Shown here: piece by piece, positions 2 to 52,428 of the stretch | How positions within the stretch are numbered: the first letter of the stretch is position 1 | How the letters are laid out: each line of letters starts with the position of its first letter | Assembly (NCBI GenBank): GCA_039654915.1 | Contig: CM077600.1 | Location: 40,408,492-40,472,491 of the forward strand | Source: Aquilaria yunnanensis | Lineage: Eukaryota; Streptophyta; Magnoliopsida; Malvales; Thymelaeaceae | DNA: 64,000 nt | Reading direction: 5' to 3' | The notes under the pieces: model-generated | The model's database searches: none | What the model was told of the DNA's origin: nothing | The model's input: the letters and a program-made list of their open reading frames with translations, nothing else | Translations under genes and position numbers: made by a program

Positions 2-2281
2 TCTAGATTCACCAAAGTTTATTTGTTAAGAAACAAAGATGAGGCTTTTGATATGTTTTTGTTGTATAAGTCTGAAGTGGAAAATCAATTGAACAAAAAG
101 ATTAAAAGAGTTAGATCAGATAGAGGAGGTGAGTTTCTATCGTTTAATGATTTCTGTGAAAAAGAAGGGATAATTCATGAATTAACTCCACCATACTCTC
201 CTGAATCAAATGGTGTAGCTGAAAGGAAAAATAGAACTTTGAAAGAAATGATGAATGCCATGCTTGTTAGTTCTTCTGCTCCTGATAATCTTTGGGGAGA
301 AGCTATCTTATCTGCTTGTCATTTGCAAAATCGAATTCCTTACAAAAAGGCTGGTATAACTCCATATGAAATATGGAAGGGTTATCCCCCAAACTTAAGG
401 TACTTAAAAGTTTGGGGATGTCTTGCAAAGGTTATGCTTCCTGAACCAAAAAAGCGTAAAATTGGATCAAAGACATCCGATTGCATGTTTATTGGATATG
501 CAGATCATAGTGCTGCATATAGATTTTTAGTGTTGAGAAGTGATGTGTTGGACTGCAACACCATAATCGAAACAAAAAATGCTGAGTTTTTTGAGCATAT
601 CTTTCCTTTGAAAAAGGAAAAGATTTCTCGTGCCCCCACTGATGAAAATATCTCTGAACATCAAGTGGAAGACTTGAGAAGGAGTAAAAGGAAAAGGAAA
701 GAGAGTTCCTTTGGACATGACTTTTACACCTACCTTGTAGATGATCCCATAACTTTTAAACAGGCGATTTATTCAAAAGAATCTGTTTTCTGGAAAGAAG
801 CCATTCAAAATGAAATAGATTCTATTTTACAAAATCAAACATGGGATTTGGTAGATTTACCACCTGGTGCTAAACCCATTGGTTGTAAATGGATTTTCAA
901 AAGAAAACTTAAGCCTGATGGCTCGGTTGACAAATATAAAGCAAGATTGGTAGCAAAAGGATTCACTCAAAAAGAAAATGTTGATTATTTTGACACTTTT
1001 GCACCAGTTTCTAGGATTTCTTCAATAAGAGTTTTATTTGCCTTGGCTTCTGTACATAAACTTATTATACATCAAATGGATGTCAAAACTGCTTTCTTAA
1101 ATGGGGATCTACAAGAGGAAATATATATGGTCCAGCCAGAAGGCTATGTTGTTTCTGGACAAGAAACAAAGGTGTGCAAATTGCGAAAATCCTTATATGG
1201 ATTAAAACAAGCACCTAAACAATGGCATGAGAAATTTGACCAAGTCTTGTTAGGTAATAAATTTTCAACTATTGGAGTTGATAAATGTGTTTACACAAAA
1301 CTTGAAGGTGGTGAATGTGTAATAATTAGCCTCTATGTGGATGATATGCTCATTTTTGGAATTACTCTTGAAATAGTTGAACATACCAAAAGCTTCCTAT
1401 CTTCACAGTTTGACATGAAAGATCTAGGGGAAGCTAGTGTAATTTTGGGTGTTAAGATCATAAGGAAAGAAAGTTGCTTAATGTTGTCACAGGAACACTA
1501 TGTTGAAAAACTTCTAATGAAGTTTAACTATCTTGAGGTGACATCTGTGAGCACTCCTTATGATGCAAACACACAATTAAAGAAAAATAAAGGTGAAAGT
1601 GTTGCTCAACAAGAGTATGCACAAATTATTGGAAGTCTGATGCACCTAATGAACTTCACTCGACCTGACATAGCTTATGCTGTGTGTAGATTGAGTAGAT
1701 ATACTCAAAATCCGAATGAAGAACATTGGAATGCTTTGGTAAGAATTATGAAATATCTAAAAGGTACCATGAAATGTGGTATCATGTATAGTGGTTTTCC
1801 CGCTGTACTAGAAGGGTACAGTGATGCTAATTGGATTTCTGACTCTGATGAAACCAAATCTACTAGTGGGTACATTTTTACTCTTGGTGGTGGAGCTGTG
1901 TCTTGGAAATCTTCAAAGCAAACTATCATTGCCAGATCCACTATGGAGTCAGAATTTATAGCCTTAGAAATGGCTGGAAGTGAAGCTGAGTGGTTGAAAA
2001 ACTTCTTAGCAGATATACCGTTGGGTATAAAGCCAATGCCTTCTGTGTCTATGCATTGTGATTGCCAAGCGGCAATAGCAATTGCAAAAAATAAATCTTA
2101 CAATGGCAAAAATAGACACATTCGATTAAGACATGATGTTGTAAAGCAGCTGCTTAATGATGGTGTTATATCGATCGATTATGTAAAGTCAGAAGTGAAT
2201 TTGGCCGATCCTCTGACTAAACCTCTGGGAAGGAAAATGATATATGAAACATCGAGAGGAATGGGACTATTGCCAACCTGA
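2..2281 (+). CDS. Ty1/Copia pol polyprotein, 3' part (integrase end, reverse transcriptase, RNase H)
   Basis: This is the C-terminal half of a Copia polyprotein, which copies element RNA into DNA and integrates it. The frame is already open at the left edge, so the start lies outside the window. In order it shows the end of the integrase core (RSDRGGEF, then [15 protein letters not shown]), the RT entry [11 protein letters not shown], the motif [15 protein letters not shown], the catalytic [13 protein letters not shown], and RNase H ([18 protein letters not shown], then ARSTMESEF). It ends in KPLGRK and a TGA stop. About 760 codons carry no stop or frameshift, so this copy is young. The 3' LTR follows after a 577-bp spacer. 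The Copia assignment rests on domain order, with integrase before RT. I do not assign a lineage. Confidence 0.95.
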
Positions 2282-10165: not shown

Positions 10166-11229
10166 TCAATCCATAGGTCTCCAGTCAGTGTAGAAACCAT
10201 GAGAGGAAGAGCTTTGGCAGTCTCTGCACGACTCACTCTTTCGGAACCCTAACTTCCAACACAAACAAACCGTCTCTGCCACCGCCATCGGTTCGCAGCC
10301 ATCATTCCTCCGTCTATGGGGATTCGACTCGGCAGAGTTGCAGCTCGAGACCCGCTCCGAGTTTGCCCGAGATAAACCGAGCCCAATAGAGAGCTCCAAA
10401 TTCAAGTCTTGCCCATTCCCCCGGACCTGCTGTTGTTCTTCGTCCGTCGTCATGCCGCTCCCTTCTTCGAGGGACTCTGTTTTGGCCTTCAATTGAAAGT
10501 CGTTGCTCTGGAAATCCAGAGATGGGTTGGTCGAAAGATTGGAATTTGGGACGAATTTGGATGCCGTTTTGAAGTCTAGTTGGGAGGTGGGTTCATTTAG
10601 AGGACGGTGGGTTTGTGGGTCGATTCCTCTGCTGATGAGTTTTCGCTTGATGTGTGTGTTCCAGTAATTCTTGATCTCATTATCTGTTCTTCCTGGTAAT
10701 CTTCCAGCAATCAGAGACCACCTGCCAACAACATTCATGAGCATTTTGTCTTATTAGATAGCATAATCTATAACAGCATTGAAAAACAAAGATTCTGTAG
10801 CCTCTACGTAAAAAGCAGAGGGAAACGGAGCCTACTTGTTTCCCAGAAGACTGTGAAGCTTGATGATGAGCTCGTCTTCTTCTTCGGTAAAATTGCCTCT
10901 CTTAAGGTCAGGACGCAAGTAGTTTATCCATCTAAGCCTGCAACTTTTTCCGCATCTAAGCAAGCCTGTAACAGAGAGGAGACCGTCAGACCGATTTGTC
11001 TGCCAAAAGCCTTTTCTTGACCGATCCAGGCAATGGTAACGAATAGTATACTAGTAAATAGCAGAGGTAAGTCGAAGTAGCAGAAGCAATAATTACCAGC
11101 GGCTTTAGGAAGGGACCGCCAGCAGCCTTCGCCGTGGAGGCGGATATAATCGATGAGCCGCTGGTCTTCCTCTTTGGTCCAGGCACCTTTATTGGTATGA
11201 GCCTTTTCACAGCAAGGCGCGCGACCCAT
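10166..11229 (-). CDS. R2R3-MYB transcription factor, subgroup-4-type repressor
   Basis: The CDS is the join of complement 11097-11229, 10836-10965 and 10166-10721: 819 bp, 272 aa. The 133- and 130-bp first exons and the intron phases are classic for R2R3-MYBs. The start [18 protein letters not shown] is canonical; an in-frame ATG 22 codons upstream is ignored. R2 and R3 cover about residues 12-115. R3 carries the bHLH-binding signature [DE]Lx2[RK]x3Lx6Lx3R at 76-95. After the repeats come [16 protein letters not shown] (C1 motif), an EAR-type repression motif [10 protein letters not shown] at 193-202, and a Cys motif [17 protein letters not shown] (C240, C242, C253, C256). Together these mark the AtMYB4/6/8/308-like repressors, which in known cases damp phenylpropanoid, lignin or flavonoid genes in the nucleus. 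The exact orthologue is not determinable here. Confidence 0.93.
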
Positions 11230-23477: not shown

Positions 23478-26400
23478 TAGAGTTGTTCACCGGGCCGGAC
23501 CGGTTCGGGACCGGACGGTCTTGGGCCTAAGGAATTTGGGCATGGGCACAACCCGGGTTGACACGTGCCGGGTTCGTGCCGGGCCTGACCCGGTCCTGTG
23601 TCGAATTCGAGCTGGGCCGTTAATTTTTAAATTTTAAATTTTAAATTTTTATTTTTATTTTAAGTTTTAGTTTTAATTTAAAATTTTTAGTCTTCAATTT
23701 TAAATTTTTAGTCTTTAATTTTAAGTTTCATTTCATTTTATATTTTTACAAATTGATATTAAAATGAAATAATATAAAAATATTATTGTCGGTATGTTAA
23801 AGAGAACAAATTTTTGGTAACTAATGTTTTACCTTTTAAAATAGTACATAAAACAATAACTGAAAAAGAAAAGGTTGAGGACGAAGAGAGGAAATAGAAG
23901 ATCTAGAGTAATAGTTATAATATGGATTTTTCAATTTTAACAATTATGGACCAAAGTACTTTATTGAACCATGGATCTTTTAAAGTAAATAACTCATTAT
24001 AAAAATCTCAATCATCAATAATGAAAAAATATGACGAAATACAATATTATGTTGAATTGATGTTAATTAATCAAAGGTTAAATCAATAACTTAATAAAAA
24101 TAAAAATAACAGGTAAGAAATTGACCAAAAAGTTTAGAAACTATGATATATTTGATTTTGAGTTAAACCATTTTTTTTAACCTTTATTAAGTCAATTATT
24201 AAAACCTTAATAACTAAAGTTATTTCTTCATGCTAAAGAAACAAACGATGATTACCAAGATTTGTATTGGTAAGATAATAATGACAAAAAATTAGAGATA
24301 AAGACAATAAATTATGCTCATAAATGTCTTACCTTAGAAAATAGTACATAAACCAACAAAAAAAAATTTGGGGACCAACAGAGTAAATAGAAGAACTAGA
24401 TTAATAGTTATTCTAAGCTTATCTTTATATTTTTATAATTACTTATTTTAAGAGTAAAACACCACTACTGGTGTGAACTTTTATTAATTTTAAAGCCAAA
24501 CGGCACTTACGTACCATGGAACGGGCTTTATATAACTCAATAGCGAAACATTCTATAAAATTAAATGCAAAATAAAAGGTACGATCTGTGCTAAACAGCA
24601 AAATCAGATCAAACACAAAGTAAGTAAATAATGAGCAAGCAGTGAATTTAAGCATCTATCTCATCGGGGTTTTCCTCGTCAGAACTCTTGTTATCTTGTA
24701 ATCTTAAAGCTGCAAGACCCCAATTACGATTGCATATACAAGCTTCAACTGCATCTGATGATAACCTTGCCCGTTTCTCTGAAATGACACGCTTCCCAGC
24801 GCTGAAAGCGGACTTCGATGCAACGGTTGAGACAGGAACAGCTAGAACTTCTTTGGCAATGATGGAGAGTATTGAAAATTTGTTGCTTCTTACTTTCCAC
24901 CAGTCTAGAATGTCCGTCTCACTATTCTCCCAAACAATGTTAAGATATGCGTCCATTTCAGTAAGACCGGATGCGGCAGCACGGAGCCGTTTGAGGAGTT
25001 GTTCAGCCGGATTGAATGACAATGAGCCCGATAATGATGAAGACCCGATGGTAGATGAAGTAGTGTTTGCAACCTTATCCTTATGCCGACCGACATAAAT
25101 CTTAAATAACTATCACAAGTGCTCATCAATAGAGGCAGTTATAGCATGAACAGAAATATGTGTCATTTCTAAAAAACTATAATAACCCTCAAGTAGCTGT
25201 TGCGTACCCGTGATTCTTACGGTCGGGTATAGTGCAGATGCAAGTAAGTAGATTGGGGGTATAGTACTGAAATATAAAATTCATTTATCTTTCATGACCT
25301 TAATTGTGTCTTTTAAGAACTCGTCATCTTTGTATTGGTTAAAAACCCATGCAATGTTGACCATATGCATTACAACTTTGTGCGATAGGGGATAGTATAC
25401 ACCGGAGCAAAAAACAGTGGCATCATAAAAATATCGCAGCACAGCAGCCAATTTTGACAATTTATCCCACATCTCTTGTTTCAAAATCGTTTTCTTTTCT
25501 CTGACATTTATAAAACATGTCATGTGTGCAGCAAATGACATCACATCCATCAACATCTCGTAAGTGGAGTTCCATCGGGTATGGCAAATAAGTTTAAAAC
25601 GTTTCCAACTAAAATCGAGGCCATTTTACAGACAATATTGCTTAAACTCTTTAGAGACTTTGGTTATTGACTTAAAATAATGGATTGCCCACCTAATTGG
25701 AGTAATTTTATTACTCAAAACTTGAAGACCTTTTTGGATAGCTAAGTTTAAAATATGACATATACACCTAATGTGAAAAAATGCGGCATCACGGACAGGT
25801 TCTAGTGATTCCTTCAATGTCTCAACCGCGACATCGTTGTTTGATGCATTATCAAATGTTATGCTAAAAACCTTGTCATGACAAAAAAATTCTTTTAAAC
25901 TTTCTGAAATTACATTGAATATGTTCCAACCAGTATGATCGACCTCCATCCACTTAAATGCAATGATACATTTTTGAATAACCCAACTATCATCAATCCA
26001 ATGTGCAGTTATACAATAATAATCTTGTCCTAGTGGTGAAGTCCACATGTCACTAGTAAATGAGATAGAATGATCAAAAGCAGAGAAGTATGCTTGTAAG
26101 TTTGATTTACCAGCTTCATAAATTTTAAATGCCTCCCTCCTAGCAGTAGTCCTAGATGTTCTTTTAAAAGTAGGGTTTAAGTATGATGTAATCCATTTTT
26201 CCATGTGTCTATCTTCCGATTGTGTAAATGGTTTTTCAGTTAACAGCATCCATTCTACCATGCATTCTCTACAATCTTTTTTATGAAATTTAAAAATACC
26301 TGATCCACCGACAGTGCTTGCAAGTTGTGTCTGACCGCCGGTACTCGTAGCTGCATCTGGACATAAAGTCGGATGCTTTGATTCCATGTGATGTCTCAGT

Positions 26401-27357: not shown

Positions 27358-30300
27358 CTCATATCCAACAAACTGACGATGACGACCAATTCGATATGAA
27401 TCAATACGACTTGGGGCTCGACGATCAATTTTCTGATAATGACGTTGAGGAGGTGGAGCCAACGGCAGCAGGGAATGTTAGTGGAGGAGATGGTTCTGAA
27501 CAAACCCCGACAAGCCATCAAGCAGAACTTCCGCCAGAAGGTAAGACGTCGAGGCGTACCGCATGGGTTTGGGAGCATTTTGACCAAGTTTTTTAGAAGG
27601 ATAGTCATGGAAACGATGCGAGGTTCGCACATTGCAAACATTCCAAACAAAAGCTCTCGCACAAGAAGAACGCTGGCACAGGAACACTGAGATGTCATAT
27701 GGAATCAAAGCATCCGACTTTATGTCCAGATGCAGCTACGAGTACCGGCGGTCAGACACAGCTTGCAAGCAGTGCCAGTGGATCAGGTATTTTTAAATTT
27801 AATAAAAAAAATTGTAGAGAATGCATGGTAGAATGGATGATGTTAACTGAAAAACCATTTACACAATCGGAAGATAGACACATGGAAAAATGGATTACAT
27901 CATACTTAAACCCTACTTTTAAAACAACATCTAGAACTACTGCTAGGAGGGAGACATTTAAAATTTATGAAGCTGGTAAATCAAACTTACAAGCATACTT
28001 CTCTGCTTTTGATCATTATATCTCATTTACTAGTCACATGTGGACTTCACCACTAGGACAAGATTATTATTGTATAACTGCACATTGGATTGATGATAGT
28101 TGGGTTATTCAAAAACGTATCATTGCATTTAAGTGGATGGAAGTCGATCATACTGGTTGGAACATATTCAATGTAATTTCAGAAAGTTTAAAAGAATTTT
28201 TTTGTCATGACAAGGTTTTTAGCATAACATTTGATAATGCATCAAACAACGATGTTGCGGCTGAGACATTGAAGGAATCACTAGAACCTGTCCGTGATGC
28301 CGCATTTTTTCACATTAGGTGTATATGTCATATTTTAAACTTAGTTGTCCAAAAAGGTCTTCAAGTTTTGAGTAATAAAATTACTCCAATTAGGTGGGCA
28401 ATCCATTATTTTAAGTCAATGACCAAAGTCTCTAAAAAGTTTAAGCAATATTGTCTGTAAAATGGCCTCGATTTTAGTTGAAAACGTTTTAAACTTATTT
28501 GTCCTACCCGATGGAACTCCACTTACGAGATGTTGATGGATGCGATGTCATTTGCTGCACACATGACATGTTTTATAAATGTCAGAGAAAAGAAAACGAT
28601 TTTGAAACAAGAGATGTGGGATAAATTGTCAAAATTGGCTGCTGTGCTGCGATATTTTTATGATGCCACTGTTTTTTGCTCCGGTGTATACTATCCCCTA
28701 TCGCACAAAGTTTTAATGCATATGTTCAACATTGCATGGGTTTTTAACCAATACAAAGATGACGAGTTCTTAAAAGACACAATTAAGGTCAGAAAGATAA
28801 ATGAATTTTATATTTCAGTACTATACCCCCAATCTACTTACTTGCATCTGCACTAGACCCGACCGTAAGAATCACGGGTACGCAACAGCTACTTGAGGGT
28901 TATTATAGTTTCTTAGAAATGACACATATTGCTGTTCATGCTATAACTGCCTCTATTGATGAGCACTTGTGAGAGTTATTTAAGATTTATGCCGGTCGGC
29001 ATAAGGATAAGGTTGCAAACACTACTTCATCTACCATCGGGTCTTCATCATTATCGGGCTCATTGTCATTCAATCCGGCTGAACAACTCCTCAAACGGCT
29101 CCGTGCTGCCGCATCCGGTCTTACTGAAATGGACGCATATCTTAACATTGTTTGGGAGAATAGTGAGACGGACATTCTAGACTGGTGGAAAGTAAGAAGC
29201 AATAAATTTCCAATACTCTCCATCATTGCCAAAGAAGTTCTAGCTGTTCCCGTCTCAATCGTTGCATCCGAGTCCGCTTTCTGCGCTGAGAAGCGTGTCA
29301 TTTTAGAGAAACGCGCAAGGTTATCACCAGATGCAGTTGAAGCTTGTATATGCAACCGTGATTAGGGTCTTGCAGCTTTAAGATTACAAGATAACAAGAG
29401 TTCTGACAAGGAAAACCCCGATGAGATAGACACTTAAATTCACTGCTTGCTCATTATTTACTTACTTTGTATTTGATCTAATTTTGCTGTTTAGCACAGA
29501 TCATACCTTTTATTTTGCATTTAATTTTATGGAACGTTTCGCTATTGAGTTATGTAAAGCCCATTCCATGGTATGTAAGTGTCGTTTGACTTTAAAATTA
29601 ATAAAAGTTCACACCGGTTGTAGTGTTTTACTCTTAAAACAAGTAATTATAAAAATATAAAGATAAGCTTAGAATAACTATTAATCTAGTTCTTCTATTT
29701 ACTTTGTTGGTCCCCAAATTTTTTTTTTGTTGGTTTATGTATTATTTTCTAAGGTAAGACATTTATGAGCATAATTTATTATCTTTATCTCTAATTTTTT
29801 GTCATTATTATCTTACCAATACAAATCTTGGTAATCATTGTTTGTTTCTTTAGCATGAAGAAATAACTTTAGTTATTAAGGTTTTAATAATTGACTTAAT
29901 AAAGGTTTAAAAAAATGGTTTAACTCAAAATCAAATATATCATAGTTTTCAAACTTTTTGGTCAATTTCTTACCTTTTATTTTTATTTTTATTAAGTTAT
30001 TGATTTAACCTTTGATTAATTAACATCAATTCAACATAATATTGTATTTCGTCATATTTTTTCATTATTGATGATTGAGATTTTTATAATGAGTTATTTA
30101 CTTTAAAAGATCCATGGTTCAATAAAGCACTTTGGTCCATAATTGTTAAAATTGAAAAATCCATATTATAACTATTACTCTAGATCTTCTATTTCCTTTC
30201 TTCGTCCTCAACCTCTTCTTTTTCAGTTATTGTTTTATGTACTATTTTAAAAGGTAAAACATTAGTTACCAAAAATTTGTTCTCTTTAACATACCAACAA

Positions 30301-49310: not shown

Positions 49311-52300
49311 ATGGAGGAAGATAATCAAGTTCCACTGAAAAGAGATATAAGGCGTTATTATTGCGATTACTGCGGGATCTGTAGATCCAAGAAAGTTCTC
49401 ATCACCTCTCACATGGCCGCTCACCACAAGGTAATGCTCGTTCTCTTTGCTATGCAAGGTTATCGTCAGAGGCTAGTTTTGTTCTCTATTGACTTGACTA
49501 GGGTTTTGAAATTTCCTTCCACTAGTCGCGAGCTTACTGGTGGTGACAGATCTTGGGTTCTTCTTAAGTTTGCTGGTTATAATCTATCCTAATTGGGTGT
49601 TTTCTGTGAAAAATGATGTTGGTTGTGAAAGATGATAGATGTACTAAATTACGTGAACTGGCTATTTCTGTGAGAACGTGGCTCTATGTTTGGTGTCATT
49701 TTTTTCAGTTGGGTTAATACTGAGGGCAAACATAAGCTGTGACTGTGATCTTAAAGTGGTAGGATTTGCTTTTTTGTTTATCCAAATTTTAGGATTGATT
49801 TTGACAAAGCTCACAGATATATGAGATTGAGTATATTGGTAGAATTTCTGATCTTATTATACTATTAACGTCAAATTGATCGAGAACACATGACGAGTTC
49901 TAGTGAAGGCAATACAATGAATATTTAGTTCCTGATTTTTAAGCATGCTGGTGTATTGGCGGTGAAGGTGGATTTATTTTGAATCAAATTGATACAAGGT
50001 ACTGAAGAATGTCGTTATTGATTGTTTGCGAAGTGAATTGCATCTTTCAAAGGACATGTTACAGCTGTAGTTCAATTCATTCATCTCTGTGTTTAGGAGG
50101 AGATTGAGAAGAAAAATGTTGATGGGGGTAGCAAGCCAGGTGTGGAATCAAATACTTGTGAAGAATGTGGCGCAACTTTTAAGAAGCCCGCTCATCTTCA
50201 ACAACACAAGCTAAGCCATTCTGATGAGGTATTGCCAGTGAATGCAAACTGTGTCATGTAAACCCATGTTTTTTCTACGAATCAGATGTGTGTTGACTCC
50301 TGAAACTAATTTGTCGCCTGTTGGTCATGCATCTACTTCTACTTATATTCAGTTTATAGCGTATCGTTTGTGCTTCCTCTCTTCAGACAGTTTGTAGTTG
50401 TATTGCACTCTTATGCACCCTATGGTCTGTCTAATGATCAAGCGTTGGGTTCCTTGGCCTTCTGATATTCTTTTACTTTTACTTGTATCAACATTCTGAT
50501 AACTTTTGAACAGTTTAAATCTCTGCTGCTAGTTAGCCCCTTGTTCTGGTCTGCCTGTTGCACTTTTTTTTCCGTTATTCATGTGGTAACTTACATTTAT
50601 CCATTCTACACTTCCTCTAAATCCTCACTGGATTGAGGTTTTATTTGTTGCCTTTAATTTCAATTTTTTATGACATGGAAAAAATATCAATCGGAAAAAT
50701 TTGGCCCAGCTATAAGAATCTCGTCTCAGTCTACTTAAAGTTATCTTCTGTCAGTAAAAAAGCAGTCTCAAATTGAAGTCTTTTGATCAATGTAAGAAAT
50801 GGGAATCCTGTATGTTTGACTGGATTCATTGATGATTAGTATTGTTTGCATATCAAGTATCTCTCTCTCTTTCTCTCTCATTATCGATTGTTTGCATGTG
50901 TTCCTATTCCATGGCAGTTGCCTGTCGGGGTCCAACTGATGTCATACAGAGCAATAGATGATAGTAGTGTCTTTTAGTTTTTTTAGTGCTTCATTGTTAC
51001 TCTCTGTCTAGGAGACATTAAGAACGAAATAACTTTGCAGGAAAGATTTGTTACACCCTATGGATTTTGTAGCGTGAAGCATTGGATCCCACTGAAAGAA
51101 CTCCAAAATGCAAGAGGCTTGGTTTTTCAACTTTGGTGGACCAGTATCAGGATGGGCGACCACCTGAGAAGCTCCATCAAGTAAGCCTCTGTCACGCAAT
51201 AATTCAATTTGAGGTTTGAAGGAATTTTTCCCCATGGCATACTATTTGTTAAGTTGAGAGTTATGTGTGAAATTGCAACCAGTAATTCTTTTGATTTTTT
51301 TTGCAGCGGCCATTTGTCTGCACATTTGATGGTTGCAATGCCAGTTACAAAAGAAAAGACCATTTGTATGTCCACCTTCGTCAGCACCGAGGAAAGGCAT
51401 ATATATGTCCTATTGATGGCTGCAAGCAAGAGTTTTCATATAAAAGCAACATGAAAGTACACATGAAGAAAGTGCACAGCAAGGATTCCCCGTCCTTGGT
51501 TCAAAGCAAGGAGAAACATATTTGCCCTGAAGTGGGCTGTGGAAAGGCGTTTAAATATGCATCGAAGCTTAAAAAGCATGCAGATTCCCATGGTAAGTTG
51601 ACTTGATTCTGTACACTTTCAGCCTTGTGAACGTTAATGATACTGAATTGTGTGTGCATTTGTTGTTCCAGTGAAGTTGGATTCAGTGGAGGCTTTCTGT
51701 TCTGAACCAACATGTATGAAATTCTTTACAAACGAGGAGTGCTTGAGGGCCCATGTGCAGTCTTGCCACCAGTATATGACTTGTGAAGTTTGTGGGGCCA
51801 AGCAGCTTAAAAAGAATATTCGGAGGCATTTACGCACACATGAATCACAAATCCCTTCAAAGAGGATCAAATGTGATTTCGGGGGCTGTGACCATACTTT
51901 TGCGACTGTAAGATACCTAGGATGTGGAATAGAATTCAAAGTTATTTTAACTTCCTACTTCAGTCAGAATCTATTGGTTTCCAGTATCTCATCCCCCTCG
52001 AAGCATCAAATGGCCCTTGTTATTGATAAATAATTTTCTTGCAGAAATCAAATCTCAGTCAGCATGTCAAGGCTGTGCACCATGGACATAAACCCTTTGC
52101 CTGTAGCTTCGCAGGCTGTGGCCAGAGATTCTCGTTCAAGCATGTCAGGGATCAACATGAGAAGTCTGGTTGCCATATTTTTACTCCGGTGAATTCTTTT
52201 GCTCTATTCTTTGTTTCATGAGCGCCCCAAAAAAAATTGTGGAGGTGGATGCTAAGTTTGTCAATCTCTATTTGCTAGGGAGATTTCCTGGAATCTGATG

Positions 52301-52428
52301 AGCAGTTACTGTCGATGCCTAGAGGCGGGCGGAAGAGAGTATGTCCTACAGTGGACATGTTGCTTAGGAAGAGGGTCACCCCTCCTGACGTCGACTTCAT
52401 GAGTGAAGATGTGTGTGATGTTCAATAG
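49311..52428 (+). CDS. TFIIIA: Transcription factor IIIA (nine C2H2 zinc fingers)
   Basis: Exons 49311-49430, 50097-50228, 51307-51592, 51672-51907, 52045-52188 and 52279-52428 join in phase: 1068 bp, 355 aa. TFIIIA binds the internal control region of 5S rRNA genes to recruit TFIIIB/C and Pol III, and also binds 5S rRNA itself, in nucleus and nucleolus. Nine fingers are visible: C18/H39, C61/H81, C89/H111, C118/H141, C157/H179, C189/H212, C217/H236, C247/H270 and C278/H302. Fingers 1 and 2 are set apart by a spacer, as in plant TFIIIA. The tail is [20 protein letters not shown]. The intron between exons 2 and 3 (50229-51306) carries the 5S-rRNA-mimic cassette, so output is probably set by alternative splicing. 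A TATA box lies 83 bp upstream. No lesion was seen. Confidence 0.96.
51041..51180 (+). promoter_or_regulatory. P5SM: 5S-rRNA-mimic cassette exon in TFIIIA
   Basis: The cassette lies between acceptor ACTTTGCAG (ending 51040) and donor CAA/GTAAGCC (51181). It copies the 5S rRNA core in order and spacing: GGATCCCA (51084-51091), AGAACTCC (51097-51104), GGCTTGG (51117-51123), GGATGGGCGACC (51150-51161), CCTGAGAAG (51163-51171). Plant 5S rRNA has GGATCCCATCAGAACTCC, then GGATGGGTGACC and CCTGGGAAG. Upstream ATGGA (51060-51064) can pair with TCCAT (51173-51177), closing a helix-I-like stem. In the known plant system ribosomal protein L5 binds this mimic and promotes skipping, which gives productive TFIIIA mRNA. 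Including all 140 nt shifts the frame and reaches a TGA at 51452-51454, expected to trigger decay. Confidence 0.92.

Follow-up and report, generated by a model that had tools for sequence, protein, structure and literature searches.

Does the TFIIIA gene of Aquilaria yunnanensis contain a P5SM, the exonised 5S rRNA that Hammond et al. and Fu et al. are said to have described in TFIIIA pre-mRNA in 2009, and if so, what would its structure conceal and what would its transcripts encode? The question arose from a first-pass annotation of a 64,000-nucleotide stretch of contig CM077600.1 (the window, in whose positions all coordinates are given). TFIIIA is required for the production of 5S rRNA. P5SM couples the availability of 5S rRNA to that of ribosomal protein, and according to a passage in PMC12218528 it is one of few cis-acting RNA structures known to control splicing in plants.

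A model built from splice sites and translation places six coding exons with canonical splice sites at 49311-52428 of the forward strand, and their product is an intact TFIIIA of 355 residues. Exon 1 (49311-49430) runs from the start codon to finger 1; exon 2 (50097-50228) encodes finger 2 and is followed by the donor GTATTG at 50229; exon 3 (51307-51592) encodes fingers 3-5; then come exons at 51672-51907 and 52045-52188 and the last coding exon, 52279-52428, which carries the stop codon TAG. Nine C2H2 fingers were found in the product by pattern matching. The protein scored 72.4 bits with Pfam zf-C2H2, and the TFIIIA chains 8ffz and 1tf6 were among the 134 solved-structure sequences that it matched. 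A homologue search returned 322 proteins at E ≤0.001 among 490 candidates, and the best 120 of the 322 were examined. The closest named proteins are plant transcription factor IIIA, with identity of at most 69% among these best 120. Sixteen of the first 17 homologues are from Malvales (Malvaceae and Shorea), and the remaining one is from Oxalis.

A 140-nucleotide cassette exon (51041-51180, forward strand) separates the finger 2 exon from the finger 3 exon, with an acceptor tttgcag/GAAAGA at 51041 and a donor CATCAA/gtaagc at 51180. The flanking signals are the donor after 50228 (gtattg) and the acceptor before 51307. The placement of the cassette between coding exons 2 and 3, proposed in the first-pass annotation, is thus borne out by the gene model and the splice signals. 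A possible shorter form, 51080-51180, would use the AG at 51078-51079 and leave the frame unchanged. An acceptor at 51080 matches the junction E/HWIP seen in gene models of Camellia, soybean, lupin and Oxalis, which suggests that it may be used in A. yunnanensis as well.

Skipping of the cassette joins exons 2 and 3 in frame, and inclusion of its 140 nucleotides (2 mod 3) shifts the frame. The cassette itself is open in the upstream frame through 51180, so that no stop codon falls in the retained exon; the frame of the exon-included form ends by translation at a TGA in exon 3 (51452-51454, forward strand), which lies 138, 374 and 518 nucleotides upstream of the three following junctions. As read from the sequence, this placement of the stop upon inclusion is the classical setting for nonsense-mediated decay. 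The Camellia model P0086 also reads through the exon. We infer that premature termination upon inclusion, which the A. yunnanensis copy retains, is the functional core of the element, and that the location of the stop is variable and not defining. If the donor is left unused, a TAA is reached at the splice site itself (frames ending in SSIK).

Resemblance to 5S rRNA was assessed against the Arabidopsis 5S sequence printed in PMC7412053. Four core blocks of 5S rRNA had been claimed to occur in the cassette in their native order. All four are present and in that order, GGATCCCA at 51084, AGAACTCC at 51097, GGATGGGCGACC at 51150 and CCTGAGAAG at 51163, but only GGATCCCA and AGAACTCC are exact in Arabidopsis 5S; GGATGGGCGACC is one base off, and the CCTGAGAAG region is more diverged. 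In the local alignment, helix II/III, loop C, loop E and helix IV are all colinear, and loop C is three bases longer in the mimic. The alignment scored 42, compared with a mean of 20.0 (sd 3.7) for shuffled sequences, and a score of at least 42 was reached by one of 5000 dinucleotide shuffles (the best scored 45). When the window was scanned on both strands in 160-nucleotide segments with a step of 40, the cassette obtained the top 5S score and the next unrelated segment 34; no second copy of comparable score was found by local alignment on either strand of the window.

The comparison with covariance models, which had been proposed as a check, fell short of the curated level. The top match is the Rfam 5S family, RF00001, but at 16.8 bits it stays under the gathering score of 38, and no P5SM family was among the matches from the 4227 families searched. 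The E-values, 2.2 for a segment of 1201 bases and 0.24 for one of 131, are counted over all 4227 families, and simple division suggests that they would be about four thousand times smaller had the single family been asked in advance. Loop E and helix IV fall within the match, which passes over 49 model positions holding helix II/III and puts its helix I onto the predicted helix P3 (see below), not P1. No Rfam match in the whole window reached the gathering score, a tRNA scan of the window returned none, and a DNA pattern derived from the helix IV region had no match in viral_contigs. The element is like 5S rRNA in its colinear sequence and predicted three-arm topology and unlike it in its score, and the mimic is not a 5S gene.

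The first-pass annotation had taken 51041-51180 as the structured element and had advised folding exactly this segment. Folded alone, the exon is no more stable than its shuffled versions (z = -0.72; 48 of 200 shuffles equally stable). With 20 nucleotides of intron added, the predicted free energy is -49.3 kcal/mol and the z-score -2.93, and none of 200 shuffles was as stable. The notion that the exon ends are the structure ends was rejected on these grounds; the predicted 5S-like fold instead occupies about 51072-51197, crossing the 5' splice site and extending some 17 nucleotides beyond 51180. A separate hairpin, 51043-51051/51060-51068, is predicted just after the cassette acceptor, outside the 5S-like part.

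In the exon with 20 nucleotides of intron, the prediction is a three-way junction with its arms in 5S order (all forward strand). P1, the analogue of helix I, is formed by GCGUGA (51072-51077) and the intronic strand UCACGC (51192-51197). P2 (51079-51111, pairs 51079-51086/51102-51111) corresponds by folding and alignment to helix II/III and loop C; this hairpin has two bulged adenosines and contains GGATCCCA and AGAACTCC. P3, the analogue of helix V, has its 5' strands at 51113-51121 and 51132-51140 (within 51113-51140) and its 3' strands at 51182-51190 and 51173-51181, respectively (within 51173-51190). It encloses the analogue of loop E and helix IV (51141-51172), which is delimited by folding and the covariance match and holds GGATGGGCGACC and the helix P4 (51147-51151/51163-51167). 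Refolding in a 1151-nucleotide context left 19 of the 23 listed P3 and P4 pairs with a probability above 0.8, and gave 0.33-0.38 for P1 and 0.22-0.38 for P2. Thus, the helix that would hide the donor is the most robust part of the prediction, and the arm resembling the L5 site is the least certain.

Peptides encoded by the P5SM element (for example, GRPPEKLHQ) are found just before finger 3, at the same gene position, in 28 of the 120 listed homologues, and 17 of the 120 read on beyond the element end with a VSLNH-like peptide; both counts were made with regular expressions, by which rows may be missed or misjudged (P0045, with VSLDH, falls outside the 17). The element-bearing models include Gossypium, Hibiscus, Malus, Rosa, Citrus, Populus, Glycine, Camellia, Olea and Papaver. 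Words from the 46 exon-side residues alone returned no candidate in a protein search, and the 28 models come from the wider search. Three models, P0024 and P0067 of Malus domestica and P0080 of Prunus yedoensis, show the P5SM-derived peptide twice in succession ahead of finger 3, at a spacing of 53-55 residues. Judging by these gene models, the mimic exon has perhaps undergone a tandem duplication in Rosaceae.

5S-like sequences are common in plant genomes, and the modest 5S score would be expected if the segment were a chance resemblance, or a recent and functionless 5S pseudogene fragment lodged in an intron. This explanation, which we find barely credible, was rejected because the same element stands at the same place in TFIIIA gene models of several eudicot families, a shared position that contradicts chance; the element is, moreover, colinear with 5S yet diverged from it, and it comes with splice sites. 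Decay of a genuine P5SM is another matter: an orthologue that has lost L5 binding or splicing, and no longer switches in A. yunnanensis, would agree with an RF00001 score below threshold, with P1 and P2 being weak in the long context, and with the enlarged loop C. Against this, the copy retains both splice sites, the frame logic, the AA bulge and the blocks of loop C and helix IV, and gene models of many other plants carry the element as well. We consider decay improbable. The identification of the cassette as a P5SM in TFIIIA pre-mRNA, made at first from the sequence, is supported by the host gene, the position, the 5S resemblance, the splice signals, the frame logic and the plant homologues together. 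We conclude that 51041-51180 is very probably the P5SM of A. yunnanensis TFIIIA, acting through exon skipping.

How would such an element be switched? Passages in PMC5972288, PMC5568362 and PMC6164485 state that L5 binding triggers cassette skipping, which gives nine-finger TFIIIA; a passage in PMC8617911 has the opposite direction from PMC6164485, with RPL5 inducing the included variant. By analogy with the literature on other plants, plentiful free L5 would bind the 5S-like fold of the A. yunnanensis transcript, the cassette would be skipped, and exon 2 would be joined to exon 3 in frame, so that nine-finger TFIIIA and, through it, more 5S rRNA would be made. With L5 occupied, the cassette would be included, the frame shifted and the transcript unproductive. 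Since P1 and P3 use intron sequence, the GU of the 5' splice site (51181-51182) is paired in the predicted fold. The bound, folded state would thereby hide the donor from U1, and we propose that skipping occurs at least partly because the 5' splice site sits inside helix P3.

The predicted accessibilities are consistent with this step. Of the six donors in the gene model, that of the cassette has the lowest accessibility, its mean unpaired probability being 0.055 versus 0.234-0.717 for the other five. Among the 134 GUAAG, GUAUG or GUGAG sites on the forward strand of the window, only two, the cassette's own included, are equally closed. In the 1151-nucleotide context, the cassette donor is 0.064 unpaired and the exon 2 donor 0.33. 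Should masking be the default whenever L5 is absent, inclusion would need a helper. Competition between L5 and an exon-defining splice factor is proposed in a passage of PMC4538838, and the same proposal also favours a different account of this one step, in which the donor helix is a bystander and L5 acts by covering the acceptor or an exonic enhancer. At 0.58 unpaired in the long fold, the acceptor at 51041 is rather accessible, as that account would have it. It does not, however, lead one to expect a donor so unusually closed for the window, nor the similar peptides with which the 17 homologue models continue beyond the element, an indication that the intronic strand has been conserved. We regard coverage of an enhancer or of the acceptor as a real possibility, short of probable. 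For masking of the cassette donor by P3, the folding models leave the case about evenly balanced.

The products of the included transcript raise a further point. Published work, PMC6164485 included, describes the long form as a decay target or, which is disputed, as the source of the TFIIIA-7ZF used by viroids. In A. yunnanensis, the reading frame for fingers 3-9 stays open from 51073 onwards, and its first ATG, at 51451, lies inside finger 4, which leaves 223 residues with fingers 5-9. With AUG starts considered, no seven-finger frame was found in the form that includes 51041-51180. The GTG at 51136-51138 (forward strand) aligns, via (M/V)(D/N)QYQ(V/D)G, with the ATG at which four seven-finger models, from Gossypium raimondii, Hibiscus syriacus, Quillaja and Malania, begin; since these are gene models, some of their start codons and junctions could be predicted ones, and the comparison would miss any model that lacks the ATG. 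The peptide (D/N)QYQVG is found in five models, preceded by M in P0002, P0005, P0019 and P0050 and by F in P0074. A change from ATG to GTG at 51136-51138 would leave U51177 paired in P3, as G-U instead of A-U.

The stop codon of the included frame and the ATG of the TFIIIA frame overlap at 51451-51454 as ATGA, which may be due to chance. Overlaps of this sort occur in termination-reinitiation in other systems.

With its stop outside the exon and no seven-finger start, the copy separates the two roles ascribed to the long form, throw-away transcript and source of TFIIIA-7ZF. Only tentatively do we combine these elements into a single reading, by which the P5SM switch has been kept, TFIIIA-7ZF has been lost (ATG having become GTG, and a restart at ATGA yielding at most five fingers) and the 5S-like fold hides the 5' splice site; taken as a whole, it is rather unlikely. 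If true, the loss would offer a natural experiment on the importance of the seven-finger form.

The P5SM system itself is already known, and the A. yunnanensis copy is a further member, of the usual kind apart from a few particulars. A. yunnanensis TFIIIA was absent from the 120 proteins examined. It shares with the P5SM described in a passage of PMC6164485 the gene, the location after finger 2, the colinear 5S blocks and the nine-finger frame upon skipping. A TFIIIA-7ZF, if made, would derive from the same exon-included transcript as there, but the finger 3-9 frame has no ATG before 51451. The stop of the included frame lies in exon 3 in A. yunnanensis, whereas the P5SM of reviews has it in the P5SM sequence according to a passage in PMC12857756, and those of Arabidopsis and two legumes have their stops in the retained exon according to PMC5568362. 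We regard the position of the stop beyond the exon, and the lack of a seven-finger ATG, as modest variants. The TPP riboswitch and the DEAD and 45ABC motifs, as presented in PMC12218528, likewise combine an unproductive isoform with an RNA structure located on or close to a splice site, but they involve other genes, structures and partners.

Several other open reading frames were seen in the window. Two closely similar ones of 253 residues, at 25626-26387 (reverse strand) and 27699-28460 (forward strand), stand in opposite orientation about 1.3 kb apart, and presumably are pieces of a hAT-type transposase. A 752-residue frame at 23-2281 (forward strand) presumably belongs to a Copia-type retrotransposon, judging by its integrase and reverse-transcriptase features, and a 192-residue frame at 10166-10744 (reverse strand) resembles what we assume to be part of an R2R3-MYB gene.
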